Shown in pieces: positions 3,339-47,206 of a stretch of 64,000 nucleotides of DNA. The number at the start of each line of letters is the position of its first letter. Within the stretch, counting starts at the first letter, position 1. The stretch is taken from NCBI GenBank assembly GCA_036768485.1, contig JAVLUZ010000630.1, positions 349,685-413,684 on the forward strand. The letters run 5' to 3'. Origin of the DNA: Mermis nigrescens (taxonomy: Eukaryota; Nematoda; Enoplea; Mermithida; Mermithidae). The notes under the pieces were generated by a model. It saw only the letters and a list, made by a program, of their open reading frames with translations, was not told the origin of the DNA and ran no database searches. The position numbers and the translations under genes are program-made.

Positions 3339-3352
3339 GTGGTAGCCATGCA

Positions 3353-7030: not shown

Positions 7031-7065
7031 ACCCTGCATATATAGGCAGGCAGGTAAATTACATA

Positions 7066-7352
7066 CACACGTGGGCGTGGGGGGGGGGGGTTTGGGGGTA
7101 TGCATCCCCCCCAGAAGTTGAAATACCCCCCAGAAACTGCGAAATACCCCCCAGAAAAAATATTTTTTGCTATTTCAGCAATTTTTTGATGTCATTGGAT
7201 AGTGCTTGATGATAAACGTGTAAAGCAGAAAAATGGTGTTTTTTTTGCCATACGACCACTTTTAAGACCATTTTTTTTGATAAAAAATTTTTTCACACTC
7301 CCCCTGAAATTTTTTCTACCCCCCTGCAGAATTTCGGTGTTGCCCACCTATG
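7066..7352 (+). mobile_element. MITE-A copy inside hAT copy 1
   Basis: CACACGTGGGCGTGG to GCCCACCTATG, with TSD CCTACATA on the right (7353-7360) and a mutated version on the left. The orthologous insertion at 41743-42015 in hAT copy 2 shares the target, so it predates the duplication of the host hAT. 7361-7780 is hAT copy 1 sequence with no gene. Confidence 0.85.
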
Positions 7353-7845
7353 CCTACATATATGTAGGTACACACTACGTCCTTACATAAGGTAGACTAT
7401 CACCTATAGGATTTGAGTAATGGCGAGCATTGGGATCTGGGAATGTCCCTCTGGGATCCAGCAGACCCCCAAAAATTGATTTTGTTGTGCTAGTTTTGGC
7501 AAATTTCTGAACCCCATCAGACCCCCTCAGAATTTGAGCAATCAGCAGTGCAAGATTATGCCTTTTGCAGCTTACCTACATACCTAACTACACCTATCAC
7601 AATAACATCATTGTTGTTCCAATAAAGTTTATTGCTGTAAGACATTATCTCTTATTCAACTTACTCAAAAATTGCAATGGCACTCATTTCATATCGAAAA
7701 GATTCAGCATCACTCATTGCCCGGTTCTTCATCTTCTTGCATTCTGGCTCCTTTTCGACCGTTGCACAGAAGTCGATACAAGTAGTTAAGGGCTGTGCTC
7801 CAGGGGTGCAACGGTTAAGTATAGGACACGTTGTAGCATAGGCGG

Positions 7846-8400
7846 CCCGGGCACGCCCCAAATTGGTGTACGAAAAATTTGGTAGACTAACAAATAGTTG
7901 CCCTGAGCGACCCCAGATTCGGTGTACTAAAAATTTTGGCAGACTAATAAATAGTTGACCTGAGCGACCCCAAATTGGAATGTACTAAAATTTTGGTAGA
8001 CTAATAAAAGAAGTTGCTCCTGAGCAAGCCTAAATTGGTGTACTAAAATTTTGGGAGGTCTAAAGAACCTCTAGCGACCCTAATTTGATGCAACTAAAAA
8101 TTTAGAGAGACCACTTCGAGATTGCGGACGAAGGTATGGGTAGGATTCGTGTACTAAAAAATAGTTGAGGAGCCTAAATGAGGCCGAAATTCTGGGTGGC
8201 CTGTGATGGACCCCCAAATAATCGAAAAGTCCTAGGCTCAGCCAGGGTGCAGATTGGTATACTAATGTTTTAGTACACTAATAATGAAGGTTAACCTGGG
8301 CACGCCCAAACCCGTGTACTAAAAATTTGGTAGACTAATAAATAGTTAACCTGGGCGAGCCCAAATTGGTGTACTAAAATTTTGGTATACTAAAAATAGT
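7846..8400. repeat. Subterminal tandem repeats, left arm
   Basis: About eight diverged units of roughly 60-70 bp built on CCAAATTGGTGTACTAAAA, TTTGGTAGACTAATAAATAG and GTTGCCCTGAGCGACC. The mirrored array at about 25650-26130 differs by several unit-sized or smaller indels, the least conserved part of the arms. Such arrays near termini could bind replication or transposition proteins (inference). Confidence 0.75.
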
Positions 8401-8810
8401 TAGGGACTGCAAACCCTGAATTTAAGCCTAAGTGTAAAGTGAAGAGGCCGGAGGGTCGCCTAAGTGTAAACTAAGCCTAAGCGCAAAGTACCCCCATATC
8501 TAAGCCTAAGTAAATAATATGGAGTGCAAATTAAAGAGGTTGGGAAGTCAGGCTAGGGATATGAATCCCAGCCCATTTAGGCCTAAGCTAAGCCTAAGTG
8601 TAAACTGAGCCAGTCCTGTAGTAGTTGACCTGAGTGGGGGTGTAAATATAAACATATGCTAACTGTCTTATCCCTAAGCCTAAAAAACCAGGGTGGAGGT
8701 GTAGCCTAAACAAAAAGCACCAACAAGCATAAGTTAAGCTAGTCCTAAAAATGTGAAATAGCTGACCCAAATGGGGGTGTAAATTAAGTTTAAGCACTGA
8801 TTAAGATGAA
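8400..8810. repeat. CCTAAG-rich subterminal block, left arm
   Basis: TAAGCCTAAG and GCCTAAGTGTAAA recur about a dozen times. The mirror block is 25290-25640. The left arm has an extra segment of about 65 bp between TAAGCCTAAG direct repeats that the right arm lacks, as expected from slippage or recombination. Confidence 0.65.
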
Positions 8811-9058
8811 TTTCGAGTATCCTAGATCAAATCATATAAGATACATATGCAACAATAATGGGGGATATGCCCAGAAGGGCATGCAATGTTGAACGCAAAT
8901 TGATATAAATAATTGTTTTTAATAATGGTTTTCAATAATTGATGTAATCATAATCATCATATAAACTAAACAAAATGACGTCTTGTCCAGTCACGCTGTG
9001 TTTCAAGACAGGTACTGGCCAGAGGAACGAAATAAACAAAAAATGATCATCAGAATTT

Positions 9059-9859
9059 TTATAAATTAGGTACACGGGTTATAAGATCATAATGATTATC
9101 AGTAGAATATAGATTGATAACTTTGTCGGCTTCAGGTCCTTCATAAATTTTGCTGCCATTGCAGTATACATTGAGCTGATAAATGGGTATCAAAACATTT
9201 TGAATTTTTTTAACAGCTTCTAAATCATATGTCTCCGCTGCAAGATTCAAACTTGCCTTGCTCAGTAATTCTCGGGCTAATTGCTTCTGTTTTGTATAAC
9301 GATTTTTATCACCTTTTCTAACGGCTTCCCAGTCAGAACTGTTCTCTAATTTAGCAATTCCAGTAACAACTGCACGAGGTAAAGACAGGTTATCATTTGA
9401 TGTAATTTTAATGAAAGCACCACCAGACTTGCAAAATTCCTTAACGTCCTTTTGCAAGCCAGTGCCCCATTGTGCATTTATATCAACAATAATGACTTGC
9501 CAGATCATGGCTTCACTTAAACAAAAATCTTTCTTTGACTGGGCTACACGTTCAATGAGGCTGAGAATTTGTTCAGCATTAATGTTCTGAGCTGTAGTAA
9601 ACGGAACTAACACAGACGAATATAAACGCGGATGTTTTATTTCAATACCGACCTTGCAGTCGGGAGGGTGATCATGCAATAGTCTCCTAATAACATCTTT
9701 AAAAATTAAATTCAAAATACGATAAATATCAGTCCATTGATTCATTTTCTCGAACTTTAAAGTGTACGCTTTTGCAAAAGAATTGAATTTTTTAGCATGA
9801 ATGGGTTTATGAAGTTCATTTAGAGTGTAAAATTCATTAATATCCATATTTTTATGCAT
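9059..9859 (-). CDS. PolB N-terminal-domain protein, left-arm copy
   Basis: 266 residues, ATG to stop, uninterrupted. The layout matches the N-terminal domain of Polinton/adintovirus-type protein-primed DNA polymerase B from arthropod genomes: EFYTLNE near the start, an ERV-containing helix at about 100-106, a WGTG loop at 131-134, NDNLSLPRAVVTGIAK around 155-170, YQLNVY at 227-232, and HYDLITRVP at 256-264. The protein stops there, where related polymerases continue into a Cys-rich segment and then exonuclease and polymerase domains, so it cannot polymerise DNA. The domain resembles an OTU-type cysteine protease fold, but Ser159 sits where relatives usually have Cys (inference). It differs from the right-arm copy at residues 34 (L/F) and 52 (I/V). 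TATATAA lies 38 nt upstream of the ATG. A second in-frame Met is codon 5. Confidence 0.8.
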   Translation of the reverse strand: MHKNMDINEFYTLNELHKPIHAKKFNSFAKAYTLKFEKMNQWTDIYRILNLIFKDVIRRLLHDHPPDCKVGIEIKHPRLYSSVLVPFTTAQNINAEQILSLIERVAQSKKDFCLSEAMIWQVIIVDINAQWGTGLQKDVKEFCKSGGAFIKITSNDNLSLPRAVVTGIAKLENSSDWEAVRKGDKNRYTKQKQLARELLSKASLNLAAETYDLEAVKKIQNVLIPIYQLNVYCNGSKIYEGPEADKVINLYSTDNHYDLITRVPNL

Positions 9860-9896
9860 CGTTACAAATAAAATTTGCGTTTTTGCTATTATTTGG

Positions 9897-9903
9897 TTAT
9901 ATA
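9897..9903 (-). promoter_or_regulatory. TATA box of left PolB-N gene
   Basis: TATATAA on the minus strand, 38 nt before the ATG at 9859, in the same place as in the right arm. Confidence 0.6.
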
Positions 9904-11723
9904 TGCTCTACATGAAACATCAAATTCACGGGTTTAAGCGAAACATGCCCAGACACGCCCAAGGATTAACAATCTTCATTTAACTAAAAGTGGTTGTACA
10001 ACTAAATTAATTTTACATATATGTCATCAAAAGACTAATCTTTTATCAAACTCAAACGTTATTTTTCATTTGAAAAGTATGTTTTATCCTGAATATGCTC
10101 ATTTTTGAGAGGCTGCCACTATTTTAGTGAAATTATGGGATTGTGGCCAGTGCAGTTGAGATGAATCAGGCAGAAATGTACAGATAATCTCTAAAAATAG
10201 TAAATTTTAGAGTCCACAAAGTATATGTTACGCAGGAAATTATGCGTTAGAGTTCCATTTGACTATATTTGGGACAGTTTTCTCACTATATTTTATATAT
10301 TTTCTAATTTTTGACTATATATTTTAGATATTTTGGCTGATTTCATAAAAAATTGTATAAATGAATTATATATTGCAGAAAGTAGAGGCTGTCGAACCCA
10401 AGAGGTGATACAAAAGAGAAAGCTGAAAATAATTGTTGAATAGAAAAACACAATAAAATTAAAAAACAGTTGATATAGTATGACCTAAGGTAGAATATAT
10501 TTAGAAACTTACAGCATGCTTAGTGAAATTGTAAAGAAATAATCAGAGTAATGTAGCATTTCTGAGATTAAATTATGCATTCCAATGGAACATTTTGGAG
10601 GATGAAAGGTCAAAACAAGAAATAATATGGTAAAAAACTCGAAAAGGCATAGTTATTAGCTATATCTTGTATGATTTATGATTGAATTTGACTGAAGTTC
10701 ATAAAAAACGATGGATAAAATCAAACTTGCTACACCTTAGATGTATAAAGGATTCCACAGGGTGTATTAGCTAGAATATAGTCAACTAAAAGTGGCAAAT
10801 GATAGAAATATTATAGTAAGTGTTACTAGCAATTAGATTTGAAACTGAAAATTCTTAGAAAAAAGTATACATAACCGAGAATTCTATGATGTACTGGTAT
10901 CCTAGAAAGCTTTCTGTTTCTTCTTACACACGCATTTCAATGATTCTGAGGCTCACACAAGGTTTTTAAAGACCTTTTTGTGTTATGTGTGTATTAATTT
11001 TATGGGAAAAACAGCAATTTATTGTTTTGCCAAGCAAAAAAAATAAAAAATTGTTGAACTATATTGAATATAACGGTGTCTACCTAACCATATGTGCTCA
11101 TAAAAAAAGAAATTATGACCCCCATAGGCGATTTTATGCTATTTTGGGCCGCTCACACGCACTGAGTGCATGAGAATCATCATCTTTCTGCTTCATTATA
11201 TAAGCTAGCAAAGAAAAAGGATCAAAAAATAACATTATTCATGGCTCACTTAGCACACATATCATAGGAGCATGACGTCAGGGGGACAGTGAAAGGTGAA
11301 ATCGCAATTTTTGGTCGATACAGGGCAAAATTTGGAATTTTTGATAAATTAGTTACATTTTCAGGCATTATTATATCAAAACTGTTTAAAAATGCACTGT
11401 TTTGGCTAAATTGCCCGCCATTCTTAACTTTTGGACTCTCCATTAGGATAATATTCCCCTTTTACCCTATTGTGCATGTATGACATAATCACTTTTTTAC
11501 TAAATTACACACAAATAAATCAAAAAAAGTTCTTATCTAGAAATTTCATGATATTTTAGCTAATTTACAGCAAAAATGTAGCCAGAAAATGTTAAAACGC
11601 TGGGGATATTAGCTTCATGAAACAGGCATTGGTGAAAAATGATGTACGAATAGTGTGAAGTAAGAGCAGCTTTACAGTATACCGTGTAAATTACCTCAAT
11701 GTTCAGGAGAAATAAGGTACAAT

Positions 11724-13337
11724 TAGTGTTATTTTGGTAGCCCAAAAATAAGTAAAATATGATATTGGTATAGTTGACTTATTTTTAATATGATATAAAT
11801 ATGATATTCTGCTATTTTTCATTTAAAATATGATATATTTTTGATATTTGGTATATATTTAATATACTTTTGGTAGGTAAGTTCATATGTATAGGTACCT
11901 ATTATGTAATTTCTGCAGCCATGTAAAAGTACATATAGGTTGTTAGCAAAATAAATAGGTAATTAAGACTCGTTCATTGTATTTCAAAGTCAAACGACTA
12001 ATGCAAATAATCAATATTTTTTCAAAGAAAAGCACAAGCATTACATTTCTAGACGCTGTTTAAAAAATTTTCATTTATTTATAACACTTTCAAAATTTAT
12101 GAGACTAAGTTACAAAATTACATAAATTCCTTTCACTTTTCGTCAAATAACAACATTTCGGAATAACGATCAGACATGCGCGTGAGGATGTGGGGTCTAT
12201 ACCACTCAGAATAGAAAGATGGAAAATTTTGTAGGGAAAATGAGGCAAAATGAAGGCCAAAACAAGATGCAAATTTAAAATTTTCTTCAAACGTGTTTCA
12301 AATTGACCAGAAACCGTGTAATATCGTGGTTTTAACGCTATTTAAGCGCTTATGCAAGTTTTGAGGTCATTTTGGCCCAAAAAGCTGAATTCTTGACCCC
12401 TACCCCAAATTGCCCTTGCTGTACACCACACCTGAACGTGGGGGGTTCAGGGGTATGCATCCCCCGAGAAACCAAAATACCCTCCCCCCTTAGAAATCAA
12501 AATATCCCCCCAGAATTCAATTTTTGAAATTTTTGTTTTTTCGCAATTTTTTGATGCCAATGGATAGTGCTCAATGAGAAACGTTGAAAAATGGTATTTT
12601 TTCGCCGTAACCTTTGAAAAATCTTGCACTCCCCCAGAATTTTCTTGCTGCCTACTTATGCTGTGCACCTATGATTACTATTAGCGAATCACAACGGTAA
12701 ACAATACAGGTGGCAAACAAGCATCGAAAAAATAAGTTTAATTTGATGGGTCAATATCATGTATTGTGGTACATATTTACCGACCTAACTGAGATTTTGA
12801 AATCTCCCAGATGATCTAGGCCACCTTTAATGAGCTGAGCTTGCCAAAAGTTATGCATTTATCAATATCGACAGGATGTCACTCAATCATACTACACTGC
12901 GCTAATTCTTTATATATCTACACACAATTAACGCAGGTCTACACAAACCTTAACGGACTCTACAATATACATATGTACGAGACGAGGTGGCTTGGTTCGG
13001 TAAATGTAGGTACATATGTGCATTAATTAAGTCATGCATACTTAAGTATGCATTATTAAAATATGACCTAGAAAATACCTACTGCATCATGCTTCGAAAT
13101 TTGCAGGTACATAAGGTATAGAGCGAAAGAAGGAAAAAGTGCTACCACTTTATACCAAAATTATACCAAAATTATACCAAAATTATATCAAAAATATTTT
13201 CACATTTTCCGGAATTTTAATATGATAAGAATATGATATACCAAAATTCTCCAGAATTAAAATATGATATTGGTAGTCCAACAAGTGCCTACCAAAATCA
13301 TACCAAAATTTATTTTTGGTATATCAAAATAACACTA
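11724..13337 (+). mobile_element. hAT element (TAGTGTTATTTTG ends), copy 1, left arm only
   Basis: TIRs TAGTGTTATTTTGGTA and, in reverse, TAGTGTTATTTTGATA. The perfect TSD GGTACAAT is at 11716-11723 and 13338-13345. The empty site (ATTGTACC) is intact in the right arm at 21868-21875. Ends are decorated with ATATCATATTTTAAT-type subterminal repeats and ATACCAAAATT units (13150-13195). No transposase frame. A reversed copy of the family lies at 15809-17436. Confidence 0.92.
12427..12660 (+). mobile_element. MITE-A copy inside the TAGTGTT hAT
   Basis: CACACCTGAACGTGG to GCCTACTTATG. TSD CTGTACAC (12419-12426) versus CTGTGCAC (12661-12668), one mismatch. Somewhat decayed. Confidence 0.8.
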
Positions 13338-13535
13338 GGTACAATGTGTGCACAAAATACCTAAAATTTTCAGAAAATGCTAGAAAATCATTATATTTTT
13401 GTAAACAAAACTTGCGCAAACATGCCAGTAAGCCTAAAAAAATCACAATATCACTCTGTTATAGTCAAATCTTTTGATGATATTGCTTTTGGCGTCACCC
13501 AAGGAAGAAATATTAAATCTCATATAGCATATAAT

Positions 13536-13847
13536 TCAAAAAACCCAACACATGGGGGTGTTGGAGACTATTTCAAAAATCAGTAAAATGTGTTTTTCTA
13601 CTTCATTTAATTTAATTTCAGAAGACAAAAAGACAAGGATGAGCTCCACTAGCATATTGACAATGCAGAATAATGACAAAAAAATGCAGCAATGGTTTAG
13701 GGCCGATTGGGTGAAAAGTCTGGACAATTGTATGTATTTCCTACACACAACTGTCGGCGTCTTAGCCTCAAAATTTCGTAGATATCTTTGTATGTTCTGG
13801 TTCAACCTGTAATATTCTTCTTCAAAAGAAGCATGTGAAATAAGCAT
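13536..13847 (-). CDS. 103-aa putative membrane protein, left-arm copy
   Basis: Not recognised. 103 residues, ATG to stop. The first 50 are polar and helical (HASFEEEYYRLNQNIQRYL). Residues about 52-75 are strongly hydrophobic (CCIFLSLFCIVNMLVELILV) and would make one membrane helix; the rest is amphipathic. The right-arm copy (21366-21677) is the same length and differs at two residues (L41F, L44I). A TATAAG box lies about 28 nt upstream of the ATG. Opposite-strand frames of 69 and 86 residues (13377-13586, 13552-13812) are also open in both arms, so the true coding strand is not certain. I prefer the minus frame because of the TATA box and the sensible membrane segment. Confidence 0.45.
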   Translation of the reverse strand: MLISHASFEEEYYRLNQNIQRYLRNFEAKTPTVVCRKYIQLSRLFTQSALNHCCIFLSLFCIVNMLVELILVFLSSEIKLNEVEKHILLIFEIVSNTPMCWVF

Positions 13848-13870
13848 ATTTTTTTACAAAGTGAATTAAT

Positions 13871-13876
13871 CTTATA
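13871..13876 (-). promoter_or_regulatory. TATA-like box of the 103-aa gene, left arm
   Basis: TATAAG, about 28 nt before the ATG at 13847; conserved at 21337-21342 in the right arm. Confidence 0.4.
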
Positions 13877-14333
13877 AGTTCATACAAAATTTACCCATTT
13901 TTTCTCACACATTGCAGAATTCTTGATCACACTATGCGAAATTCTTATGACTTTTTGTGCTTTAATATAATTTTCGACAAATATGGCTAAAATTTCATTT
14001 AAAATCTATATCTTATTGCATAAAATCATGAAATTCAAGCAAGTTGATGCACAGAAAGATTGAGAAAGCATGTCATTATCAGAAAAGCTACAAGTTTTCA
14101 TTGTTTTGCTCCAGTTTTCTATGTAAATTTAACCCGATAGAGATGATTTTTTTAAAAAGCTAGGCTACTGTGATGTTAATGTGGCCAGTGGGCATTCTTC
14201 AAAAAAGTTAGAAAATGCACTTTTTGCCATATATTCTGATATTATTTCTGAAATATAAGCCAATTCAGGCTCGTTTAACATTTCTTTCTATGCAGGTATT
14301 CATGCGGCACACATCACTTAACTGTATTTTAAG

Positions 14334-15199
14334 TAGAGCTGTGCCGGGGCCAGGCCCCGGCCCCGGCCCCGGCCCCGGCGCCGGGGCCTAGGCCCCGGCC
14401 CCGGGCCAGGGCCAGGCTGGCCCCGGCACCGGGGCCGGGGCCAATGTTAGAGTTGATTATAATGTAGAAAATTGATAATGTTTTGGGCAGATTTACCTTC
14501 AAACTCAATTTCAAGCAAACCACAGATCTTGCTAATTCAAATCTTTATTTCACTATGTCAGATTGGTGCAAATTTCTAGTTAATAATCAAAATTGACATA
14601 TTTTAAATTGCAATTCATATAGACGAGCATTTCCAGCTTGCTTGGTAGCAGACAGCTACGTCTATCAGAACAAATAGAATAATAAGCCTAAAAAAGTGCA
14701 AAGTAAAGCACATTGAAAAACGCATCCAAGTCAGAGGAGTTAAATCCATACATGGGCAGCTCAGAAATTCTAGGGGGGTAGTCAAAAAGTGCCTGATAAT
14801 ATATGATAGAGCGAAAAAACACCGTTTTCTCGCGTTTCTCAATGAGAGCTATCCATTAGCATCAAAAAAACCGCAGAAAAACAAAAAATTCTGAAAATCA
14901 ATTTCTGGGGGGTCTAGCGGATTTTTTTTTGGGGGGGGGGGAGAATGTGAATTCTTGGGGGTCTAGATCCCCCCATGCCCATGTTCTGTTATATCTTGTA
15001 ATCCCAACAAATATTAACGCTTGACGTGCATATCTACAAACAAGAATATATGCATAGGTACATATAAGGGGTAGGGCAGGGTCGTACTAGTGAGCATGGT
15101 AAAGCACGCTATTATTGGCCCCGGCCAGGCCCCGGCCCCGGCCCCGGCCCCAGCCCCGGCCCCGGCCCCGGCAAAAAAGGCGGCCCCGGCACAGCTCTA
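14334..15199. mobile_element. hAT element with (GGCCCC)n ends, left arm only
   Basis: Perfect TIR TAGAGCTGTGCCGGGGCC at both ends, running into GGCCCC hexamer arrays (about 14342-14443 and 15118-15190). Perfect TSD ATTTTAAG at 14326-14333 and 15200-15207. Empty site CTTAAAAT in the right arm at 20882-20889. 866 bp including a nested MITE-A. No transposase; open frames in it are GC-array artefacts. Confidence 0.93.
14747..14987 (-). mobile_element. MITE-A copy nested in the (GGCCCC)n hAT
   Basis: CATACATGGGCAGC to CATGCCCATGTTCT. TSD GTTAAATC (14739-14746) versus GTTATATC (14988-14995). Confidence 0.8.
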
Positions 15200-16185
15200 A
15201 TTTTAAGTACATATTATCACAAGGTCAAAACACAAAGAAGTATTATCTATGCATGTCTCAAAGAGCACAAACGAAATTTATTAAATGTGGCGAAGATGTG
15301 CTGAAGATAATTCGAAATTTGAATAATTCCACATCAATTCACGGGTTTTGATGCACAACACGGTATAAACAATAATATCTCAGGCGGATAATTCTAAATC
15401 TGCATGTATACCTTCAATACAGTATGCATTCTAACAAATTAATGAAAGGATGAGCTCAAGCTTGATATGTACATACATCAATCACCACCGTACGTGCATA
15501 CGTTATAACTTTATTTCATGAACTAGCAGTTGATAATTTATTATAGAAGATTGAAAATATTCTTCACCGCTGTTTTAGCATTTATATTGATTTTTGAGGG
15601 CGTTTAGACCCAAAAAACGCAATTTTTTACCCCCTTCTGCAGATTGATCATGCTCTCCATCTTAACTCAACACGAAATTCTAGCGCAAAAATGAGATAAA
15701 TTAGCATTTTTCCACACGAAACTCTTTGTTTAACTAAAAAACATTAGGAAATAGCAAATATGATGTATGTTCGTGATAATTAATGCTGAAATTGCCGGAT
15801 GAATGAAGTAGTGTTATTTTGATATACCAAAATAAATTTTTGTATGATTTTGGTAGGCACTTGCTGGACTATCAATATCATATTTTAATTCTGTGAATTT
15901 TGGTATATCATATTCTTATCATATTAAAACTCTGGGAAATGTGAAAATATTTTTGATATAATTTTGGTATAATTTTAGTATTAAGTGGTAGCACTTTTCC
16001 TTTTATCGCTCTTCATCTTACTTACTTATTTTGTACGTATGATGCAGTAGGTATTTTTCCACAGGTTGTATTATCATATGGAGACAAAAACGTAAGTATG
16101 CATGTATATACGCATACCGAGCCGAGCCCCGTCATACATGTAGTCTGTTGAGGTTTCCTATACACCTACGTTATTTGTGTGTATT

Positions 16186-16428
16186 TAATTGGGCGTCGGG
16201 GAGGGGTTTGTGAGGAATGCACCCCAGAAACCGAAATACCCTCCCCCAGAATAAAATTTTTGAAATTTTTTGTTTTTTTTTTCGCAATTGTTTAATGCCA
16301 ATGGATATTGCTCAATGAGAAACGTTGAAAAATGGTCTTCGTTCGCCATACCACCATTTTTAAGGCCATTTTTTGACCTTTGAAACAAACTCGCACTCCC
16401 CCCCGGAAATTTGGAGCCGCCCATGGTG
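16186..16428 (+). mobile_element. Decayed MITE-A copy
   Basis: Internal blocks (TGCACCCCAGAAACC, GCCAATGGATA, GAGAAACGTTGAAAAATGG, GCCGCCCATGG) are clear. The left terminus has decayed and no TSD could be confirmed. Confidence 0.65.
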
Positions 16429-16533
16429 TACTTGCATACAATTAGCGCAGCGTAGTATGAGTGAAGTAACACCTGTCTGTGTTGATAAATGCGTGATATA
16501 AGGTGAGCTCAGCTCATCATTAAGGTTAGCTTA

Positions 16534-16699
16534 CAGTCTGTTTCACATATGTTTAAGCATAAATTTTAAGAAGTTATTCGAAAGTAAGCCGACGGATTAT
16601 GATAATTATATATCAAATCAATGCTATAATCGCAATCTGTCAATTTGTTGTCGAACATCGTTTTTAAAATTTATGCCCAAACTTGTGTGAAACAGACTG
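16534..16699. mobile_element. MITE-C, short palindromic element, intact copy
   Basis: 166 bp between CAGTCTGTTTCACA and its inverse TGTGAAACAGACTG. Inner inverted blocks AGCATAAATTTTAA and TTAAAATTTATGCCC. The same element, split by a hAT, is at 40444-42614; part of it is at about 45530-45580. Confidence 0.75.
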
Positions 16700-17825
16700 G
16701 TTTTCTTAATCCTTGTTTGCCACCTGTATTCTTGACCGTTGAGCTTCCCTGATTGTGATCCAAATATTCCAAAATTTTGTTATTTGTCGAAAAGTGAAAT
16801 GAATTCATATAATTTTGAACTTAATCTCGTAAATTTTGGAAGTTTTTAAATAAATGAAATTTTTTTTGAAATTTACGTCTAAAAATGTAATGCTCATGTT
16901 TTTCTAGAGATTATTTCACAAAACCTTGCGCACTAAAATCAATTTTATACGATTAGTGAGCAGGTACAGAATATGTTTCTACGTAGATTACTGTAACACA
17001 AACTAGCTATGCTTATTCATTGCTATGCATGACATCGTAATTGTTGCTTCCGATTAAGTGAAAAATCGTTGGGAATGAGGAGTTAATCGTTTAAAAATAA
17101 TTAATTACCTGCATACTTAGCCTTTTGACTTTGAAATAAAATAAACGAGTCTTAAAATATGCATAATTTATTACAGTGCATTGATATGCAAGCATTTAAT
17201 TACCCAACAATTTTGCTTACATAGGTATCTACTTTGAATGGTTTTGCAGAAAATACATAATTAGTATACATAGTATGCACTACTTACCAAAAACATATTA
17301 AATATATACCAAATATCAAAAATATATCATATTTTTAATAAAAAATAGCAAAATATCATATTTATATCATATTAAAATTAAGCTCACTATACCAATATCA
17401 TATTTTAATTATTTTCGGGCTACCAAAATAACACTAGAATGAAGCACTAATTAGTTATTGGTTACAAAAATACACACATTCACCTACAAAATGAGTGAAA
17501 AACTATGGAAACTACCTATTTTCTATAAGATTATGCCAACAAGGAGTCTTAAATATTTAGGAAAATTGAAGAATTTTTACAAGTTTATGTAATTTATTCT
17601 TTCTTAGGCACACAGGAAAAATAACAATGTATGCGTTTTAAATAAAATTTTTGTTTTTAGAAATTAGGGTAGAGGATTATAAGGTAGAGGGATAATTCCC
17701 CAACGTACAACAGGCTATAAATTTAATTCATGCACAAGCTTATGTATTTGATGCTCAGCAGTGTTTAAAGTAAGATTTAACCAAATGGCGCGCCCTTCTG
17801 GACTCAAATTTCGCCACATTTTGGA

Positions 17826-18089
17826 TTAAAGAGGAGCTTTGATTTCTTGCATGGATTTTTCCAAGTTCATGGTAAAATACCAAAAAGCGCGCAATTTTCG
17901 TCTACCTGTGAGCTCATGCATATAAGAGTAGTTTGCAGCGGCTAGTTTCCACTGTGCTTTATAGTCGGCACAAAAACGTTCCCAAAAATAGGACGCCACA
18001 CAGGCTAAGTCATAGTTACTATAGCCATCGTGTATGAAATGGAAGGCCAGCTGAGAGCAAAAAAATTGAAAACATTCTTCAGCCATCAT
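17826..18089 (-). CDS. 87-aa loop protein of the palindromic element, unknown function
   Basis: Not recognised. 87 residues, ATG to stop, rich in aromatics and predicted mostly helical (for example SYFWERFCADYKAQWKLAAA, then GRRKLRAFWYF). No signal peptide or metal-binding pattern. TATAAATA lies 30 nt upstream of the ATG. Its last few codons cross the inner boundary of the left arm at about 17844, so the gene's 3' end is exactly where the inverted repeat begins. That suggests the arm junction formed close to, but without destroying, this gene. It is single-copy in the window. Real-gene status rests on promoter placement and on context beside an Hsp20-like gene. Confidence 0.5.
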   Translation of the reverse strand: MMAEECFQFFCSQLAFHFIHDGYSNYDLACVASYFWERFCADYKAQWKLAAANYSYMHELTGRRKLRAFWYFTMNLEKSMQEIKAPL

Positions 18090-18118
18090 GCATACATAAC
18101 TTTTTAAATATACTCTGA

Positions 18119-18126
18119 TATTTATA
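18119..18126 (-). promoter_or_regulatory. TATA box of the 87-aa gene
   Basis: TATAAATA on the minus strand, 30 nt before the ATG at 18089; same octamer as the Hsp20-like gene. Confidence 0.55.
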
Positions 18127-19397
18127 ATCTTAATTTTATTACAAAAGGTGGTTTCTTTTCTTTAGCTGTAGCCTTAGTTTCAGCTAACTGACAATGTGAG
18201 AAAATACTGCTCTCTGGTGGTGCTCAAATATATTCTACGTATTTGTACACATTTGTATGTAAAAAATGCGTTGAAAGAGCCGTGCTCAACAAATTACTGA
18301 GATATATGCTGTGTAGTTTTCTGAAATTATGCAATAATATAGCACACAAAATGCGACAAATTATCATTTTCGAACATAGATCTAGTAAGGAAAAATCCGA
18401 AAATAGCGAATATAATGTATATTTGTGATAATTAATGATAAAACTGCCTTACATATGAAGCACTAGCTAGTTATTTGATAACAAAACTGCATGGTGAAAA
18501 GGCATTAATCAACCGAATGTGCAAAAAGCTAGAAAAATTAGCCGTTTTCTATGAGATTATGCTAGCAAGGTGTCACAAACATTTAGGAGAATCGAGGAAT
18601 TTCTCTACTTAGCGTAATAATTATGATAACAGGAGAACAGAGCTGCATGATTATTTTTAAATTTTTTGTGAAGATCACTTGAATTATGATCATACTTCAA
18701 TACAATATTGCGTGGAATGTATTAGAAATTGGAAAAAAAGAGTTGATTATATGCTTTTTTATCTTTATTGCATGCTTATATAGTCAAAAATTGGATTCTT
18801 TTAATATGATTTTGTTTGTTTTGTTGTCTAAATATTGCCTAAAATATACAACTTTAATGGGAAACAGGCGAAAATAGATGTAAAAAACACAAAATGCCTA
18901 CACAGGGTGGTTTTAAATAGTGATTGAAAGGCTAAAAATTGAAAGTCAAACACTTTGGACCCTAATTTTGCTACCAGCAATGGTGTTGTGAAACGATGTT
19001 TTTTGCTATGCCTGGTAAATTGTTTGAAAAATGCGTTTTTTATGACAAGAAGATTTACAGAGATGGCTCATTATTTTTAAATTTTCACTTTACTAGCAAA
19101 ATCTTGCACGTTTTTTGACAAAGTTTTGGGAAGATCACTTAAATTTTTTACTATAATTCAATGCAATACTGTGTAAAATGCATTTTGTTGCCTAAATATG
19201 GACTAAAATATACAATTTTTATGAGCAGCATGGGGCGGCGGCGGCGGACGGACGCAAATTGGTGTACCTAAATTCTGATGCATCAATCTGTGCATAGAGG
19301 AAACCGACCGAGACATCCCCAAATTTGTCCCACGTCTTGGGAGAAAAATTATTAATAACCTAAAATTTTATTTAGTAAATTAATAAACACAAAATAC
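18127..19397. other. Non-coding loop DNA with relic duplications
   Basis: 18330-18620 is a diverged direct copy of arm sequence (compare 15690-15808 joined to 17437-17600): shared GATAATTAATG, GAAGCACTA and TTTTCTATRAGATTATGC. 18640-18870 and 19060-19230 are diverged repeats of each other (GAAGATCACTT, CCTAAATAT, AAAATATACAA). Near 19254-19330, CAAATTGGTGTACCTAAATT resembles the subterminal repeat unit. Small frames here have no support. Confidence 0.55.
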
Positions 19398-19811
19398 CTA
19401 ATAATAATCAGTGTGCAAAACATTGGCGGGTAGCATATCAATCTTCTTCAGGCCTTCAATAAACAGCTCGAAATTGTTGGCCGGAGTGGGAGGCGATTCA
19501 ATGATCGGGCGTTTAGTACGGCAATTCTGGGCACTGAAGGTATTTATTTTCAATTCATTTTCTCCATTTTTCTCGGTCGAAATACAAACAACAGAGTTAT
19601 TGTAATAAGCCTTTACATTCTGGAAATTAATTTTTGGCGGCAATAAATGACAGCATCTGAATGAATGTCGTGCAAAATTCTGCCCTTTCAACTCAAACTC
19701 TTTTTTTGCTTCCACAAATACCAATCTATCAACTATTTTTACACTTATTTCATCGATACTGTAGAAATTGGACTTTGTTGGATAAATTCTAACGCAAAAT
19801 ATAGTCGACAT
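19398..19811 (-). CDS. Small heat-shock (alpha-crystallin/Hsp20-like) protein
   Basis: 137 residues, ATG to stop. Residues about 18-82 read as an alpha-crystallin domain: a strand pair like ISVKIVDRLVFVEAKKE, a polar turn, then RHSFRCCHLLPP matching the R-x-F-x-R-x-x-x-LP segment, then INFQNVKAYYNNSVVCIST in place of the usual V-x-A-x-x-x-x-GVL strand. The conserved Gly of that motif is absent. The tail contains RPIIES, possibly the I-x-I/V-type C-terminal anchor. The N-terminal region is very short for a metazoan small heat-shock protein. TATAAATA begins 45 nt upstream. Small heat-shock proteins hold unfolded clients; in a mobile element it might chaperone element proteins or be a captured host gene (inference). 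Divergent enough that a profile search is needed. Confidence 0.55.
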   Translation of the reverse strand: MSTIFCVRIYPTKSNFYSIDEISVKIVDRLVFVEAKKEFELKGQNFARHSFRCCHLLPPKINFQNVKAYYNNSVVCISTEKNGENELKINTFSAQNCRTKRPIIESPPTPANNFELFIEGLKKIDMLPANVLHTDYY

Positions 19812-19848
19812 CCTGAAGACAAATGAAATGATTTGTTGCAGTCATCCT

Positions 19849-19856
19849 TATTTATA
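19849..19856 (-). promoter_or_regulatory. TATA box of the Hsp20-like gene
   Basis: TATAAATA on the minus strand, 38-45 nt before the ATG at 19811. Confidence 0.6.
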
Positions 19857-21336
19857 TCAAGAATGAGTACACTAATGACTCATCAAAGCCCTCTTTAATC
19901 CAAAATGTGGCGAAATTTGAGTCCAGAAGGGCGCGCCATTTGGTTAAATCTTACTTTAAACACTGCTGAGCATCAAATACATAAGCTTGTGCATGAATTA
20001 AATTTATAGCCTGTTGTACGTTGGGGAATTATCCCTCTACCTTATAATCCTCTACCCTAATTTCTAAAAACAAAAATTTTATTTAAAACGCATACATTGT
20101 TATTTTTCCTGTGTGCCTAAGAAACAATAAATTACATAAACTTGTAAAAATTCTTCAATTTTCCTAAATATTTAAGACTCCTTGTTGGCATAATCTTATA
20201 GAAAATAGGTAGTTTCCATAGTTTTTCACTCATTTTGTAGGTGAATGTGTGTATTTTTGTAACCAATAACTAATTAGTGCTTCATTCATCCGGCAATTTC
20301 AGCATTAATTATCACGAACATACATTATATTTGCTATTTCCTAATGTTTTTTAGTTAAACATAGAGTTACGTGTGGAAAAATGCTAATTTATCTCATTTT
20401 TTGCGCTAGAATTCCGTGTTGAGTTAAGATGGAGAGCATGATCAATCTGCAGAAGGGGGTAAAAAATTGCGTTTTTTGGGTCTAAACGCCCTCAAAAATC
20501 AATATAAATGCTAAAACAGCGGTGAAGAATATTTTCAATCTTCTATAATAAATTATCAACTGCTAGTTCATGAAATAAAGTTATAACGTATGCACGTACG
20601 GTGGTGATTGATGTATGTACATATCAAGCTTGAGCTCATCCTTTCATTAATTTGTTAGAATGCATACTGTATTGAAGGTATACATGCAGATTTAGAATTA
20701 TCCGCCTGAGATATTATTGTTTATACCGTGTTGTGCATCAAAACCCGTGAATTGATGTGGAATTATTCAAATTTCGAATTATCTTCAGCACATCTTCGCC
20801 ACATTTAATAAATTTCGTTTGTGCTCTTTGAGACATACATAGATAATACTTCTTTGTGTTTTGACCTTGTGATAATATGTACTTAAAATACAGTTAAGTG
20901 ATGTGTGCCGCATGAATACCTGCATAGAAAGAAATGTTAAATGAGCCTGAATTGGCTTATATTTCAGAAATAATATCAGAATATATGGCAAAAAGTGCAT
21001 TTTCTAACTTTTTGAAAATGCCCACTGGCCACATTAACATCACAGTAGCCTAGCTTTTTAAAAAAATCATCTCTATCGGGTTAAAATTACATAGAAAACT
21101 GGAGCAAAACAATGAAAACTTGTAGCTTTTCTGATAATGACATGCTTTCTCAATCTTTCTGTGCATCAACTTGCTTGAATTTCTTGATTTTATGCAATAA
21201 GATATAGATTTTAAATGAAATTTTAGCCATATTTGTCGAAAATTATATTAAAGCACAAAAAGTCATAAGAATTTCGCATAGTGTGATCAAGAATTCTGCA
21301 ATGTGTGAGAAAAAATGGGTAAATTTTGTGTGAACT

Positions 21337-21342
21337 TATAAG
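21337..21342 (+). promoter_or_regulatory. TATA-like box of the 103-aa gene, right arm
   Basis: TATAAG 29 nt before the ATG at 21366. Confidence 0.4.
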
Positions 21343-21365
21343 ATTAATTCACTTTGTAAAAAAAT

Positions 21366-21677
21366 ATGCTTATTTCACATGCTTCTTTTGAAGAAGAATA
21401 TTACAGGTTGAACCAGAACATACAAAGATATCTACGAAATTTTGAGGCTAAGACGCCGACAGTTGTGTGTAGGAAATACATACAATTTTCCCGAATTTTC
21501 ACCCAATCGGCCCTAAACCATTGCTGCATTTTTTTGTCATTATTCTGCATTGTCAATATGCTAGTGGAGCTCATCCTTGTCTTTTTGTCTTCTGAAATTA
21601 AATTAAATGAAGTAGAAAAACACATTTTACTGATTTTTGAAATAGTCTCCAACACCCCCATGTGTTGGGTTTTTTGA
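21366..21677 (+). CDS. 103-aa putative membrane protein, right-arm copy
   Basis: Same length and reading as the left-arm copy at 13536-13847, with F41 and I44 in place of Leu. A hydrophobic helix at about 52-75 is the only recognisable feature. The changes cluster in one ~20-nt patch, otherwise near-identity. The overlapping reverse frames (21401-21661, 21627-21836) also stay open, so high arm identity rather than selection may explain the conservation. Function unknown. Confidence 0.45.
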   Translation: MLISHASFEEEYYRLNQNIQRYLRNFEAKTPTVVCRKYIQFSRIFTQSALNHCCIFLSLFCIVNMLVELILVFLSSEIKLNEVEKHILLIFEIVSNTPMCWVF

Positions 21678-23689
21678 ATTATATGCTATATGAGATTTAA
21701 TATTTCTTCCTTGGGTGACGCCAAAAGCAATATCATCAAAAGATTTGACTATAACAGAGTGATATTGTGATTTTTTTAGGCTTACTGGCATGTTTGCGCA
21801 AGTTTTGTTTACAAAAATATAATGATTTTCTAGCATTTTCTGAAAATTTTAGGTATTTTGTGCACACATTGTACCTTACTTCTCCTGAACATTGAAGTAA
21901 TTTACACGGTATACTGTAAAGCTGCACTTACTTCACACTATTCGTACATCATTTTTCACCAATGCCTGTTTCATGAAGCTAATATCCTCAGCGTTTTAAC
22001 ATTTTCTGGCTACATTTTTGCTGTAAATTAGCTAAAATATCATGAAATTTCTAGATAAGTACTTTTTTTGGATTTATTTGTGTGTAATTTAGTAAAAAAG
22101 TGATTATGTCATACATGCACAATAGGGTAAAAGGGGAATATTATCCTAATGGAGAGTCCAAAAGTTAAGAATGGCGGGCAATTTAGGCCAAAAACAGTGC
22201 ATTTTTAAACAGTTTTGATATAATAATGCCTGAAAATGTAACTAATTTATCAAAAATTCCAAATTTTGCCCTGTACGACCAAAAATTGCGATTTCACCTT
22301 TCACTGTCCCCCTGACGTCATGCTCCTATGATATGTGTGCTAAGTGAGCCATGAATAATGTTATTTTTTGATCCTTTTTCTTTGCTAGCTTATATAATGA
22401 AGCAGAAAGATGATGATTCTCATGCACTCAGTGCGTGTGAGCGGCCCAAAATAGCATAAAATCGCCTATGGGGGTCATAATTTCTTTTTTATGAGCACAT
22501 ATGGTTAGGTAGACACCGTTATATTCAATATAGTTCAACAATTGTTTATTTTTTTTGCTTGGCAAAACAATAAATTGCTGTTTTTCCCATAAAATTAATA
22601 CACACATAACACAAAAAGGTCTTTAAAAACCTTGTGTGAGCCTCAGAATCATTGAAATGCGTGTGTAAGAAGAAACAGAAAGCTTTCTAGGATACCAGTA
22701 CATCATAGAATTCTCGGTTATGTATACTTTTTTCTAAGAATTTTCAGTTTCAAATCTAATTGCTAGTAACACTTACTATAATATTTCTATCATTTGCCAC
22801 TTTTAGTTGACTATATTCTAGCTAATACACCCTGTGGAATCCTTTATACATCTAAGGTGTAGCAAGTTTGATTTTATCCATCGTTTTTTATGAACTTCAG
22901 TCAAATTCAATCATAAATCATACAAGATATAGCTAATAACTATGCCTTTTCGAGTTTTTTACCATATTATTTCTTGTTTTGACCTTTCATCCTCCAAAAT
23001 GTTCCATTGGAATGCATAATTTAATCTCAGAAATGCTACATTACTCTGATTATTTCTTTACAATTTCACTAAGCATGCTGTAAGTTTCTAAATATATTCT
23101 ACCTTAGGTCATACTATATCAACTGTTTTTTAATTTTATTGTGTTTTTCTATTCAACAATTATTTTCAGCTTTCACTTTTGTATCACCTCTTGGGTTCGA
23201 CAGCCTCTACTTTCTGTAATATATAATTCATTTATACAATTTTTTATGAAATCAGCCAAAATATCTAAAATATATAGTCAAAAATTAGAAAATATATAAA
23301 ATATAGTGAGAAAACTGTCCCAAATATAGTCAAATGGAACTCTAACGCATAATTTCCTGCGTAACATATACTTTGAGGACTCTAAAATTCACTATTTTTA
23401 GAGATTATCTGTACATTTCTGCCTGATTCATCTCAAGTGCACTGGCCACAATCCCATAATTTCACTAAAATAGTGGCAGCCTCTCAAAAATGAGCATATT
23501 CAGGATAAAACATACTTTTCAAATGAAAAATAACGTTTGAGTTTGATAAAAGATTAGTCTTTTGATGACATATATGTAAAATTAATTTAGTTGTACAACC
23601 ACTTTTAGTTAAATGAAGATTGTTAATCCTTGGGCGTGTCTGGGCATGTTTTCGCTTAGACCCGTGAATTTGATGTTTCATGTAGAGCA

Positions 23690-23696
23690 TATATAA
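23690..23696 (+). promoter_or_regulatory. TATA box of right PolB-N gene
   Basis: TATATAA, 38 nt before the ATG at 23734. Confidence 0.6.
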
Positions 23697-23733
23697 CCAA
23701 ATAATAGCAAAAACGCAAATTTTAATTGTAACG

Positions 23734-24534
23734 ATGCATAAAAATATGGATATTAATGAATTTTACACTCTAAATGAACTTCATAAACCCATTCATGCTA
23801 AAAAATTCAATTCTTTTGCAAAAGCGTACACTTTTAAGTTCGAGAAAATGAATCAATGGACTGATATTTATCGTATTTTGAATTTAGTTTTTAAAGATGT
23901 TATTAGGAGACTATTGCATGATCACCCTCCCGACTGCAAGGTCGGTATTGAAATAAAACATCCCCGTTTATATTCGTCTGTGTTAGTTCCGTTTACTACA
24001 GCTCAGAACATTAATGCTGAACAAATTCTCAGCCTCATTGAACGTGTAGCCCAGTCAAAGAAAGATTTTTGTTTAAGTGAAGCCATGATCTGGCAAGTCA
24101 TTATTGTTGATATAAATGCACAATGGGGCACTGGCTTGCAAAAGGACGTTAAGGAATTTTGCAAGTCTGGTGGTGCTTTCATTAAAATTACATCAAATGA
24201 TAACCTGTCTTTACCTCGTGCAGTTGTTACTGGAATTGCTAAATTAGAGAACAGTTCTGACTGGGAAGCCGTTAGAAAAGGTGATAAAAATCGTTATACA
24301 AAACAGAAACAATTAGCCCGAGAATTACTGAGCAAGGCAAGTTTGAATCTTGCAGCGGAGACATATGATTTAGAAGCTGTTAAAAAAATTCAAAATGTTT
24401 TGATACCCATTTATCAGCTCAATGTATACTGCAATGGCAGCAAAATTTATGAAGGACCTGAAGCCGACAAAGTTATCAATCTATATTCTACTGATAATCA
24501 TTATGATCTTATAACCCGTGTACCTAATTTATAA
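23734..24534 (+). CDS. PolB N-terminal-domain protein, right-arm copy
   Basis: 266 residues, intact, and identical to the left-arm product except F34 and V52. I saw only a handful of nucleotide differences between the copies. Same domain features: LPRAVVTG near 160-167, QKQLARELL near 191-199, YQLNVYCNGSKIYEGP near 227-242, HYDLI at 256-260. Stop immediately after RVPNL; no Cys-rich, exonuclease or polymerase domain follows, only 14 nt and then an 8-bp TSD with a TIR insertion. Both copies have the same endpoint, so truncation (or evolution as a stand-alone gene) predates the arm duplication. Could act as an accessory or interfering version of the polymerase N-domain (inference). Confidence 0.8.
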   Translation: MHKNMDINEFYTLNELHKPIHAKKFNSFAKAYTFKFEKMNQWTDIYRILNLVFKDVIRRLLHDHPPDCKVGIEIKHPRLYSSVLVPFTTAQNINAEQILSLIERVAQSKKDFCLSEAMIWQVIIVDINAQWGTGLQKDVKEFCKSGGAFIKITSNDNLSLPRAVVTGIAKLENSSDWEAVRKGDKNRYTKQKQLARELLSKASLNLAAETYDLEAVKKIQNVLIPIYQLNVYCNGSKIYEGPEADKVINLYSTDNHYDLITRVPNL

Positions 24535-24556
24535 AAATTCTGATGATCATTTTTTG

Positions 24557-25047
24557 GGATCTTTTCTAGAATTCCCCCCACCGATTTTCGTAACTTTTTT
24601 CGGCATAAATCGTTTGGGATTGGTCGGATTCGAACCCGGGAGCTTCAGTTCTATAGTTGGGCGCTTTCACCATCTCGCCATTCCGGTCGATAACACAAAT
24701 TATGCGAATTCCTTTATATGTGGTCTTTCAAGGTAGGTACCTATGTCTTATTTTCAGATGTAACTACGTAAGCAAAGTAAATCAAGGTGCCGGCATAAAT
24801 AATGCTATATCGTTCAAAATTTTATCGAATCTGCATTCACCGGTTTTCACCGTTTGCCGCCACATAAATTCGCAAAGGTAACAGACGTTTGACAGATGAA
24901 TGATTTATTGGCTTTAATAGTTTAAACTTACATTTGAAGTTTAAAATCAACTTGTAAATAAGTGTGTACACTATAGCTAATAATGAAATTTTTAAAAAGT
25001 TAGTAGTCATTGGGAAAAACGGTGGGGGGATATTCTAGAAAAGGTCC
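24557..25047. mobile_element. 491-bp TIR element, right arm only (Merlin-like?)
   Basis: TIRs GGATCTTTTCTAGAATTCCC at the left and, in reverse, GGACCTTTTCTAGAATATCC, both followed by CCCACCG. Perfect 8-bp TSD ATTTTTTG at 24549-24556 and 25048-25055. Empty site CAAAAAAT in the left arm at 9037-9044. GG ends with an 8-bp TSD suggest Merlin, but hAT is not excluded. It contains a tRNA-like head. Confidence 0.88.
24616..24688 (-). other. tRNA-like segment (SINE-head type), not a functional tRNA
   Basis: On the minus strand, a box A-like TGGCGAGATGG and a perfect box B-like GGTTCGAATCC lie at tRNA-like spacing. The acceptor strands do not pair and the T stem keeps only about two pairs. Best read as a tRNA-derived SINE head or decayed tRNA captured in the TIR element. 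Confidence 0.6.
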
Positions 25048-25289
25048 ATTTTTTGTTTATTTCGTTCCTCTGGCCAGTACCTGTCTTGAAACACAGCATG
25101 ACTGGACAAGACGTCATTTTGTTTAGTTTTTATGATGATTATGATTACATCAATTATTGAAAACCATTATTAAAAACAATTATCTATATCAATTTGCGTT
25201 CAACATTGCATACCCTTCTGGGCATATCCCCCCTTATTGTTGCATATGTATCTTATATGATTTGATCTAGGATACTCGAAATTCATCTT

Positions 25290-25640
25290 AATCAGTGCTT
25301 AAACTTAATTTACACCCCCATTTGGGTCAGCTATTTCACATTTTTAGGACTAGCTTAACTTATGCTTGTTGGTGCTTTTTGTTTAGGCTACACCTCCACC
25401 CTGGTTTTTTTAGGCTGAGGGATAAGACAGTTAGCATATGTTTATATTTACACCCCCACTCAGGTCAACTACTACAGGACTGGCTCAGTTTACACTTAGG
25501 CTTAGCTTAGGCCTAAATGGGCTGGGATTCATATCCCTAGCCTGACTTCCCAACCTCTTTAATTTGCACTCCATATTATTTACTTAGGCTTAGACCCTCC
25601 GGCCTCTTGACTTTACACTTAGGCTTAAATTCAGGGTTTG
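25290..25640. repeat. TTAGGC-rich subterminal block, right arm
   Basis: Mirror of 8400-8810; CTTAGGCTTAG motifs. Not long or regular enough to be telomeric DNA. Confidence 0.6.
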
Positions 25641-25649
25641 CAGTCCCTA

Positions 25650-26130
25650 ACTATTTTTAGTATACCAAAATTTTAGTACACCAATTTGGGCTCGCCCAGG
25701 TTAACTATTTATTAGTCTACCATATTTTTAGTAGACGGGTTTGGGCGTGCCCGGGTTAACCTTCATTATTAGTGTACTAAAACATTAGTATACCAATCTG
25801 CACCCTGGCTGAGCCTAGGACACGTTATTTGGGGGTCCATCACAGGCCACCCAGAGTTTCAGCCTCATTTAGGCTCCTCAACTATTTTTTAGTACACGAA
25901 TCCTACCCCTACCTTCGTCCGCCAGAAATTAGTCTCCTAAATTTTTAGTACATCAAATTAGGGTCGCTAGGGATCTTTAGACCTCCCAAAATTTTAGTAC
26001 ACCAATTTAGGCTCGCTCAGGGCAACTATTTATTAGTCTACCAAAATTTTAGTACACCAATTTGGGGTCGCTCAGGGCAACTATTTATTAGTCTACCAAA
26101 TTTTTAGTACACCAATTTGGGCGTGCCCGG
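25650..26130. repeat. Subterminal tandem repeats, right arm
   Basis: Mirror of 7846-8400, built on TTTTAGTACACCAATTTGG and CTATTTATTAGTCTACC, with fewer units than the left. Confidence 0.75.
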
Positions 26131-26559
26131 GCCGCCTATGCTACAACGTGTCCTATACTTAACCAGTGCACCCCAGGGAGCCGCCCTTAACTACTTACAT
26201 AGAGTACATGAAAAAATTTTGCGGGGCGGGGCGGGGCGGGCCTAATTTTTGTAACATTACTGGCGGGGCGGGGCGGGTCTTAGGAGCTGCGGGGCGGGGG
26301 CGGGGCGGGCTTTATTTCTTTCTTGGCGGGGCGGGGCGGGTCAAAAAATTTCGGCCCGCGCAGGTCTCTGCTGTCAGTGAAGGATCCATTACGTCAAAGT
26401 CGTTTGCATGATCCTACTTCTACTTTTTTCACATTTAAATTTCGCAATAATTTTCGAAAATTCTTTTGCGTCAAAACTAAAACTATGTAGGTCTAGGAGA
26501 AAAGCCCAGGATTCAGAAAAAATCCTTCTCATGTATGTATAGGTACAAAAATTTTACCA

Positions 26560-41712: not shown

Positions 41713-41742
41713 TATATAGAGGTAAGAGCAGGTACCTACATA

Positions 41743-47164: not shown

Positions 47165-47206
47165 GTTTTTACCCCCCCCCAAATTTTAACCATCCGCAAA
47201 AATTTT

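Follow-up and report, generated by a model that had tools for sequence, protein, structure and literature searches.

A 64,000-nucleotide stretch of the genome of Mermis nigrescens (the window: assembly GCA_036768485.1, contig JAVLUZ010000630.1, positions 349,685-413,684, forward strand) contains a giant palindromic element at 7781-26195, which consists of two inverted arms of ~5.9 kb around a 2-kb loop once four later insertions are set aside. It belongs to a multi-copy family and shares its termini and types of genes with adintovirus-like viruses integrated in the same genome. It likely arose as a copy-back by-product of the replication of such viruses and would now use their polymerase and integrase. 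At the sequence level this proposal draws support from a fold-back junction at site C268 (C-labels denote sites in the assembly searched, 524 Mb in 860 contigs), 6-bp duplications around the palindromes at C187, C268 and C726, the homogeneity of the arms, selection on the arm gene, the placement of TATA motifs and the shared termini. Moreover, the two lineages of these satellites, A, which includes the window element, and B, have their internal order in common.

Structure and copies of the palindromic element

The sequence-only reading had described near-identical arms of ~5.9 kb, a ~2-kb loop, termini and subterminal repeats, all of which were recovered. Without its later insertions the unit measures ~13.8 kb, and the left arm is the longer because three of the four insertions lie in it. 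Identity between the arms falls from 99.0-99.5% in the inner blocks to 92% in the subterminal part and to 86% over the last 280 bases. The termini, AGTAGTTAAGGG...CCCTTAACTACT, are exact, and the arm homology stops at them with none beyond; hence the arms are not a local segmental inverted duplication running past the ends. Large palindromes are likewise produced by chimaeric reads that fold back on themselves, but an assembly artefact of this kind is hardly credible here. The arms within one element differ by 0.06 to 1.7%, those of the window element bear arm-specific insertions with target duplications of their own, the close pairs of arm genes have the same orientation in 13 of 13 cases, and satellites A and B keep a common internal order despite being 21-33% apart where they can be aligned.

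On its own, the terminal 12-mer shows no enrichment in the assembly (60 exact hits against 81 for the reversed control), so it is its pairing and the longer homology that count. Twelve neighbouring pairs lie within 20 kb, 11 of them facing each other. We read ten facing pairs besides that of the window and, at all 37 single ends, the adjoining 0.8-2 kb (more at C51 and C59); 12 of these single ends lack family homology at the end (nine altogether, three with homology only to a repeat further in). Copies at unrelated loci, which the sequence-only reading had named as support for its interpretation, were thereby found: satellite A occupies nine distinct sites with an end read (C587, C187, C335, C59, C51, C68, C268:137 kb, C585 and C709), with a tenth, C194, recognised by its genes only. 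Hits at C754 and C268:475 kb have the flanks of C585 and C268:137 kb, respectively, and are not counted. Both boundaries of the window loop (17844/19881) recur in C187; C335 has the left one only, its other side being lost. Among C187, C59 and the left side of C335, the inner arms differ at just 0.02-0.11% of sites; these arms are separated from the window arms by 0.30-0.34% (right) and 0.54-0.60% (left), and from the C51 arm by 0.60-0.71%. This low divergence indicates that satellite A is a star-like recent burst.

In C59, whose right end is cut off, the blocks are ordered A-B-S'-B'-A', such that block B flanks both sides of the 0.6-kb spacer S holding an Hsp20-like gene. The C101 element, of the satellite B lineage, shares the B-S' junction, its second B being only ~59 bp. 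As the motif TTTGAT occurs at both ends of the block missing at the A/S border of the window element, the window form is best explained as the remnant of a longer palindrome in which a deletion between short repeats removed one B. The loop at 17844/19881 probably does not mark the original fold-back, given the older, longer palindrome to which C59 and C101 point. C101 aligns with the window element in stretches of 68-79% identity. Its arms differ mutually at 16 of 2605 sites, against 67 of 1982 and 75 of 1986 in comparison with the C68 copy of the same lineage; in this element, the only one that allowed such a comparison, the two arms are thus sisters.

A stand-alone terminal-protein gene with an inactivated vOTU domain

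Both arms of the window element carry an unbroken open reading frame (ORF) of 266 amino acids (aa), in which the sequence-only reading had seen PolB N-terminal domains. The homology stands: BLASTP aligns the protein with the PolB N-terminus of the element at C49 with E 4e-57 and 36% identity (95 of 262 aligned columns). The arm gene is interpreted as a stand-alone terminal-protein/vOTU module, not as a truncated polymerase; non-palindromic elements such as that at C131 carry the same module. It was the match to PolB of the same genome that settled the homology; Pfam and PHROGs profile scans gave nothing useful, a protein search restricted to proteins of similar length detected no relatives, and neither did viral-contig searches with the protein or a degenerate motif (DNLCLARA-like).

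According to a structural analysis, the PolB N-terminus comprises a terminal protein and, behind it, a vOTU protease with the presumed role of releasing it (PMC11071308, as far as its text was available). In each of the five stand-alone families examined (satellites A and B, C131, C726 and C590), serine takes the place of the vOTU cysteine, the histidine is retained and ~13 residues are absent. Three polymerase-fused sequences that could be read cleanly here (C49, C128 and the metagenomic P0012) have the cysteine, the C191A and C191B copies being too damaged at this site to be counted. Hence, the vOTU of the stand-alone gene is probably dead. The gene is under purifying selection: between satellites A and B, omega is 0.207 (bootstrap 0.135-0.305, with 0 of 2000 bootstraps reaching 1), with 0.31 in the first and 0.16 in the second part, as estimated from in-frame stretches of the frame-broken C101 gene. 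C49 and C128 possess an additional, separate gene of 123 aa whose end roughly coincides with that of the terminal-protein part, and the terminal protein of C131 is identical at eight loci.

In a genome scan for this gene (2172 first-look candidates, of which the best-scored 144 were used), 13 pairs lie less than 20 kb apart and all 13 point outward. Six of these have been read as palindromes (C187, C335, C587, C59, C726 and C590); the seven unread pairs are C585, C754, C51:18.2 Mb, C61, C192, C814 and C48, with C585 and C754 representing one site.

The Hsp20-like gene that the sequence-only reading had placed in the loop matches Pfam HSP20 just past the cut-off (21.9 against 20.8 bits), its best sequence match in PDB having E 0.041. 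It is stop-free in C59, C194 and C585 and broken in C187. An Hsp20-like match is situated 2.8-3.3 kb upstream of PolB, on the same strand, at 9 of the 80 best-scored PolB loci, and a related, damaged gene occurs at a PolB-element-like end at C101:2747 kb. The chaperone is therefore most likely a virus gene retained by the satellite. Four small TATA-driven genes had also been proposed. A motif scan found TATA-like motifs 37-45 bases ahead of the start codons of the Hsp20-like ORF, the 87-aa ORF and the 266-aa ORF in its right-arm copy; no such motif precedes the 103-aa ORF, which also has an omega of 0.91 (41 codons) and for these reasons looks non-coding. BLASTP shows no significant link between the 87-aa ORF and the 108-aa genes of C131 and C726.

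That the terminal-protein gene is under purifying selection could also mean that the palindromes are retained for the benefit of the host, with the terminal-protein and Hsp20-like genes forming a permanent antiviral defence that interferes with replication of the helper. Such a role has a parallel in adeno-associated virus (AAV), for which the accessible part of PMC8235507 reports that snapback genomes in excess inhibit the full genome. We regard this as rather unlikely, because selection for the element's own spread gives the same pattern, most of the satellite A arms compared are within ~0.7% of each other, and several copies have broken genes.

Polymerase-bearing partner elements

The ORFs of the window element comprise the terminal-protein/vOTU gene, the Hsp20-like gene and small ones, with neither PolB nor integrase among them. 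A partner with the same termini and a set of viral genes, as postulated by the sequence-only reading, is found at C49 and C128: these elements share the termini of the satellite, have similar subterminal repeats, and code for PolB, an integrase, a minor-capsid candidate, a capsid-like protein, an adenain-like protease, an ATPase, a TATA-binding protein (TBP) and an F-box protein. In Pfam runs on the C49 ORFs (the ATPase being scored on the C268 copy), PolB matches DNA_pol_B_2 on separate ORFs (E 1.1e-19 and 3e-20), the integrase, a 207-aa ORF without chromodomain, matches rve (4.6e-11), and the ATPase matches Pox_A32 above the cut-off (3.6e-6); the protease match (0.0013) is below it. The integrases of C131 and C726 show rve plus Chromo. 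The capsid-like protein of C49, named by its place and size only, has 11 metagenomic relatives of 48-62% identity; neither Pfam nor a profile comparison with the solved structures in PDB gave a match, and viral-contig searches with it and with the C49 PolB returned no relatives. TATAAAT lies 37-57 bases before the start in four of the nine C49 ORFs scanned. The TBP matches of the adintovirus-like elements reach E 2e-48 (L014:2534-3238) and 7e-43 (L069:4695-5213), and the F-box match of C49 E 1e-11 (L014:3345-4211).

A genome scan for PolB, in which the best 80 of 1062 candidates were scored, found matches in long open frames, for example at C75 (1377 codons) and C86 (1380 codons). None of these best 80 loci has one of the best 144 terminal-protein loci within a distance of 20 kb. 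The 10.4-kb element at C131 (~551476-561918; L069 and L072), read in two stretches, has 413-bp ends and the duplication TAAGTA. By Pfam it codes for an integrase with chromodomain and TBP, in addition to its stand-alone terminal protein; ATPase, capsid-like and protease genes are assigned by ORF reading only, the capsid-like ORF being seemingly interrupted by a hAT-transposase-like stretch. No PolB ORF was seen in the two stretches. Genomes with adenovirus-class virion genes and without recognisable PolB or integrase are already mentioned in the available text of PMC11071296.

Two further observations concern related elements. C331 and C777 seemingly represent one insertion on opposite strands (6.3 and 4.3 kb; L028, L031), perhaps from two haplotypes. 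The partly masked C191A has inverted ends of 3.1 kb with 92% identity (L022/L023), which places it between ordinary terminal repeats and giant palindromes.

Snapback genomes and target duplications

The element at C268 (13.0 kb, target duplication AACCTT) is a palindrome of the capsid half of a C49-like virus. Starting at the right end, it is collinear with C49 across the capsid genes and the integrase up to about codon 102 of PolB; from there it jumps back to a point immediately ahead of the capsid-like gene and continues outward as far as the same right end. Its arms are 99.1% identical over 4480 bp, the spacer measures ~4 kb and the junction shares at most one base. One end of the parent is thus duplicated in inverted orientation, and the spacer is contiguous with one arm in C49, which identifies C268 as a snapback genome. 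The origin put forward by the sequence-only reading, a defective-interfering-type derivative with one end duplicated head-to-head and the core lost, is supported by this visible instance of the event. In C726 the arms are 99.0% identical over 4493 bp, with an integrase in each and a spacer of ~146 bp; in C590, recognised from its interior with the ends not read, they are 98.2% identical over 1988 bp around a single integrase in the spacer. These palindromes of other subfamilies indicate repeated origins.

Polintons and adintoviruses have AG...CT ends and 6-bp target duplications. Exact 6-bp duplications were detected at 7 of the 13 elements checked, among them C187 (GATACC), C49 (TACAAA) and C726 (GATACC, if its right end is read with three AGTs and its left with two). 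Replication in adenovirus and phi29, which is protein-primed, begins with a jump-back, and both the AGT-AGT ends and the three versus two AGTs of C726 are consistent with such a start. TACA had been considered as the target duplication of the window copy and was dropped, the duplications of the family being of 6 bp. Separately, the unrelated palindromes C187 and C726 share their duplication, and the left flank of the window element ends in GATACA (L020/L021, L068/L070).

These ends bear on two other accounts of the palindromes. A fold-back DNA transposon of another superfamily that captured viral genes would explain the giant inverted ends and the missing capsid genes. This is very improbable: the palindromes share their termini, subterminal repeats, TATA spacing and 6-bp duplications with PolB elements of this genome, and none of the six ORFs of the window element scanned against Pfam is a transposase. 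Alternatively, the palindrome could have been made in the chromosome, by opposite neighbouring insertions or an inverted segmental duplication with loss of the middle, and later copied as a unit. The absence of target duplications from the window copy, C335, C101 and C128 would suit this, as would the unequal ages of the C335 arms, which fit recombination between copies. However, C187, C268 and C726 are each framed by a single 6-bp duplication, which largely refutes it there, the internal boundaries are common to copies at unrelated sites, and the arms stop exactly at the termini; we therefore consider a chromosomal origin unlikely.

A model for the origin and spread of the satellites

Based on these observations we favor copy-back during protein-primed, strand-displacement replication; both this mechanism and the dependence on a helper PolB are inferred. 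A strand copied inward from the end with the terminal-protein gene would turn back onto its own complement and run out to the same end, and the product would be arm, spacer and inverted arm, with two like ends and two terminal-protein genes but no core. The satellite's own terminal protein would then prime these ends for the helper PolB, and the element would replicate and integrate with the PolB and integrase of the helper. Death of the vOTU may reflect the split, after which the terminal protein no longer has to be freed from a polymerase, while the likeness of the arms could be maintained if a hairpin form were corrected against itself in each replication round.

Several points weigh against this scenario. 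The replication and spread of the satellite are deduced from genomic sequence. Inward of the terminal-protein gene, the arms of satellite A show no similarity to 12 helper stretches, C726 or C131, so its direct parent was not found; the window element displays the palindrome, and C59 and C101 the older order, with no non-palindromic parent identified. The C49 copy is not itself an intact helper, as its PolB is split over three ORFs, and three of its nine scanned ORFs, including the stand-alone terminal protein, have no upstream TATA motif. Target duplications are absent from the window copy, C101, C128, C335 and C191A, and imperfect at C331. The arms of C335 are unequal in age (~1 against ~60 own changes), the right one being ~1.7% from the arms of C187, C59 and the left side of C335, so that C335 is chimeric. 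The terminal-protein gene is frame-broken in C101 and C68, at differing places, and two structure predictions of the 266-aa protein are poor (mean predicted local distance difference test scores, pLDDT, of 38 and 43), the fold being argued from its sequence.

There is about an even chance that, more generally, defective interfering genomes of an integrating protein-primed virus became heritable, self-propagating mobile elements through the splitting of the terminal protein from the polymerase. This split would have opened a lifestyle of owning the primer and borrowing the polymerase, whose forms may include elements that have capsid-like genes but no PolB (C131), palindromes that encode an integrase themselves (C726 and C590) and palindromes reduced to primer and chaperone genes (the window element). 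Palindromes might be favored in it since they have the primer gene and the origin at each end.

Other features of the window

The features of the window element and its insertion site are listed in Table 1. Compared with the uninterrupted relative of the host repeat, ~41 and 9 extra bases lie beside the element's ends. Elsewhere in the window, a short dispersed repeat with GGGGGG/CCCCCC tracts occurs in many copies (2262-3630, 28829-29363, 32817-33097, 35846-36355, 46700-47185, 48002-48285 and 49550-49831, and within two of the left-arm insertions), and 50395-50621 is an almost pure array of ~113 AT dinucleotides.

Table 1. Features of the palindromic element and its insertion site (window positions)
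Feature	Position	Strand	Remarks
Left arm (A)	7781..17843	none	~5.96 kb after removal of three later insertions
Right arm (A')	19882..26195	none	~5.8 kb after removal of one later insertion
Unique loop	17844..19881	none	Block B 17844-19280 and block S 19281-19881; inverted second B in C59
Terminus AGTAGTTAAGGG	7781..7792	+	Common to polymerase-bearing elements of the same genome
Terminus, reversed	26184..26195	-	Same 12-mer at far end of the element
Subterminal repeats, ~55 bp, left	7856..8402	none	
Subterminal repeats, ~55 bp, right	25648..26122	none	
Terminal-protein and pseudo-vOTU gene, stand-alone, 266 aa	9059..9859	-	Outward transcription; 36% identity to C49 PolB N-terminus; vOTU Cys to Ser
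Second terminal-protein and pseudo-vOTU gene	23734..24534	+	Outward transcription; TATATAA 44 bases upstream
Hsp20-like gene, 137 aa	19398..19811	-	Pfam HSP20 E 2e-4, barely over cut-off
87-aa ORF spanning arm/loop border	17826..18089	-	TATAAAT 37 bases upstream
103-aa ORF, left arm	13536..13847	-	Probably no gene
103-aa ORF, right arm	21366..21677	+	Probably no gene
Later insertion, left arm	11724..13336	none	8-bp target duplication
Later insertion, left arm	14336..15199	none	8-bp target duplication
Later insertion, left arm	15809..17436	none	8-bp target duplication; ends akin to those of 11724-13336, inverted
Later insertion, right arm	24557..25046	none	9-bp target duplication
Interrupted host repeat, left part	6255..7738	none	Uninterrupted relative at 40940-42554
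Interrupted host repeat, right part	26205..26370	none	

Comparison with known systems

Copy-back genomes are usually taken as dead-end by-products. Here they appear integrated, repeatedly formed and long-lived, carrying a gene on which purifying selection acts and occurring alongside relatives that bear a polymerase, and the passage from defective genome to transposon becomes testable. They also offer a naturally occurring terminal protein that is split from a polymerase of the Polinton type, and an explanation for giant palindromes that repeat annotation could mistake for artefacts. The titles and abstract openings listed in searches of the literature on adintovirus/Polinton elements and snapback genomes contain no described family of this plan, nor do the accessible portions of PMC11071308, PMC12721341, PMC6431247, PMC8235507 and PMC11071296.

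According to the available text of PMC11071308 and PMC11071296, adintoviruses and Polintons have a PolB with terminal-protein and OTU-like N-terminal domains and an rve integrase with chromodomain. These elements (Mavericks) retain a complete core and terminal repeats of the ordinary kind; the satellite, in contrast, is nearly all inverted repeat and lacks genes for PolB, integrase and capsid. Adenovirids encode the terminal protein apart from the polymerase and have an inactive vOTU (PMC11071308, in the part available). Their vOTU-like domain sits in the polymerase, whereas in the satellite the dead vOTU is still joined to the terminal protein. The kalilo linear plasmid, which has the same type of replication, reportedly yields a hairpin-forming deletion derivative; it is mitochondrial, whereas the satellite is an integrating multi-copy family. 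Dependence on helper enzymes would be common to the satellite and to virophages and other satellite viruses; virophages encode capsids, whereas no capsid gene is seen in the window element. A structural parallel exists in AAV, although its priming system and that of protein-primed viruses differ. The AAV snapback genomes are self-complementary left-end or right-end halves, symmetric or asymmetric, in the accessible part of PMC8235507, and C726 and C268 are likewise symmetric and asymmetric halves, C268 having the asymmetric plan. The AAV forms were found in particles, whereas the satellite is integrated and multi-copy, and forms old lineages with a gene under purifying selection.

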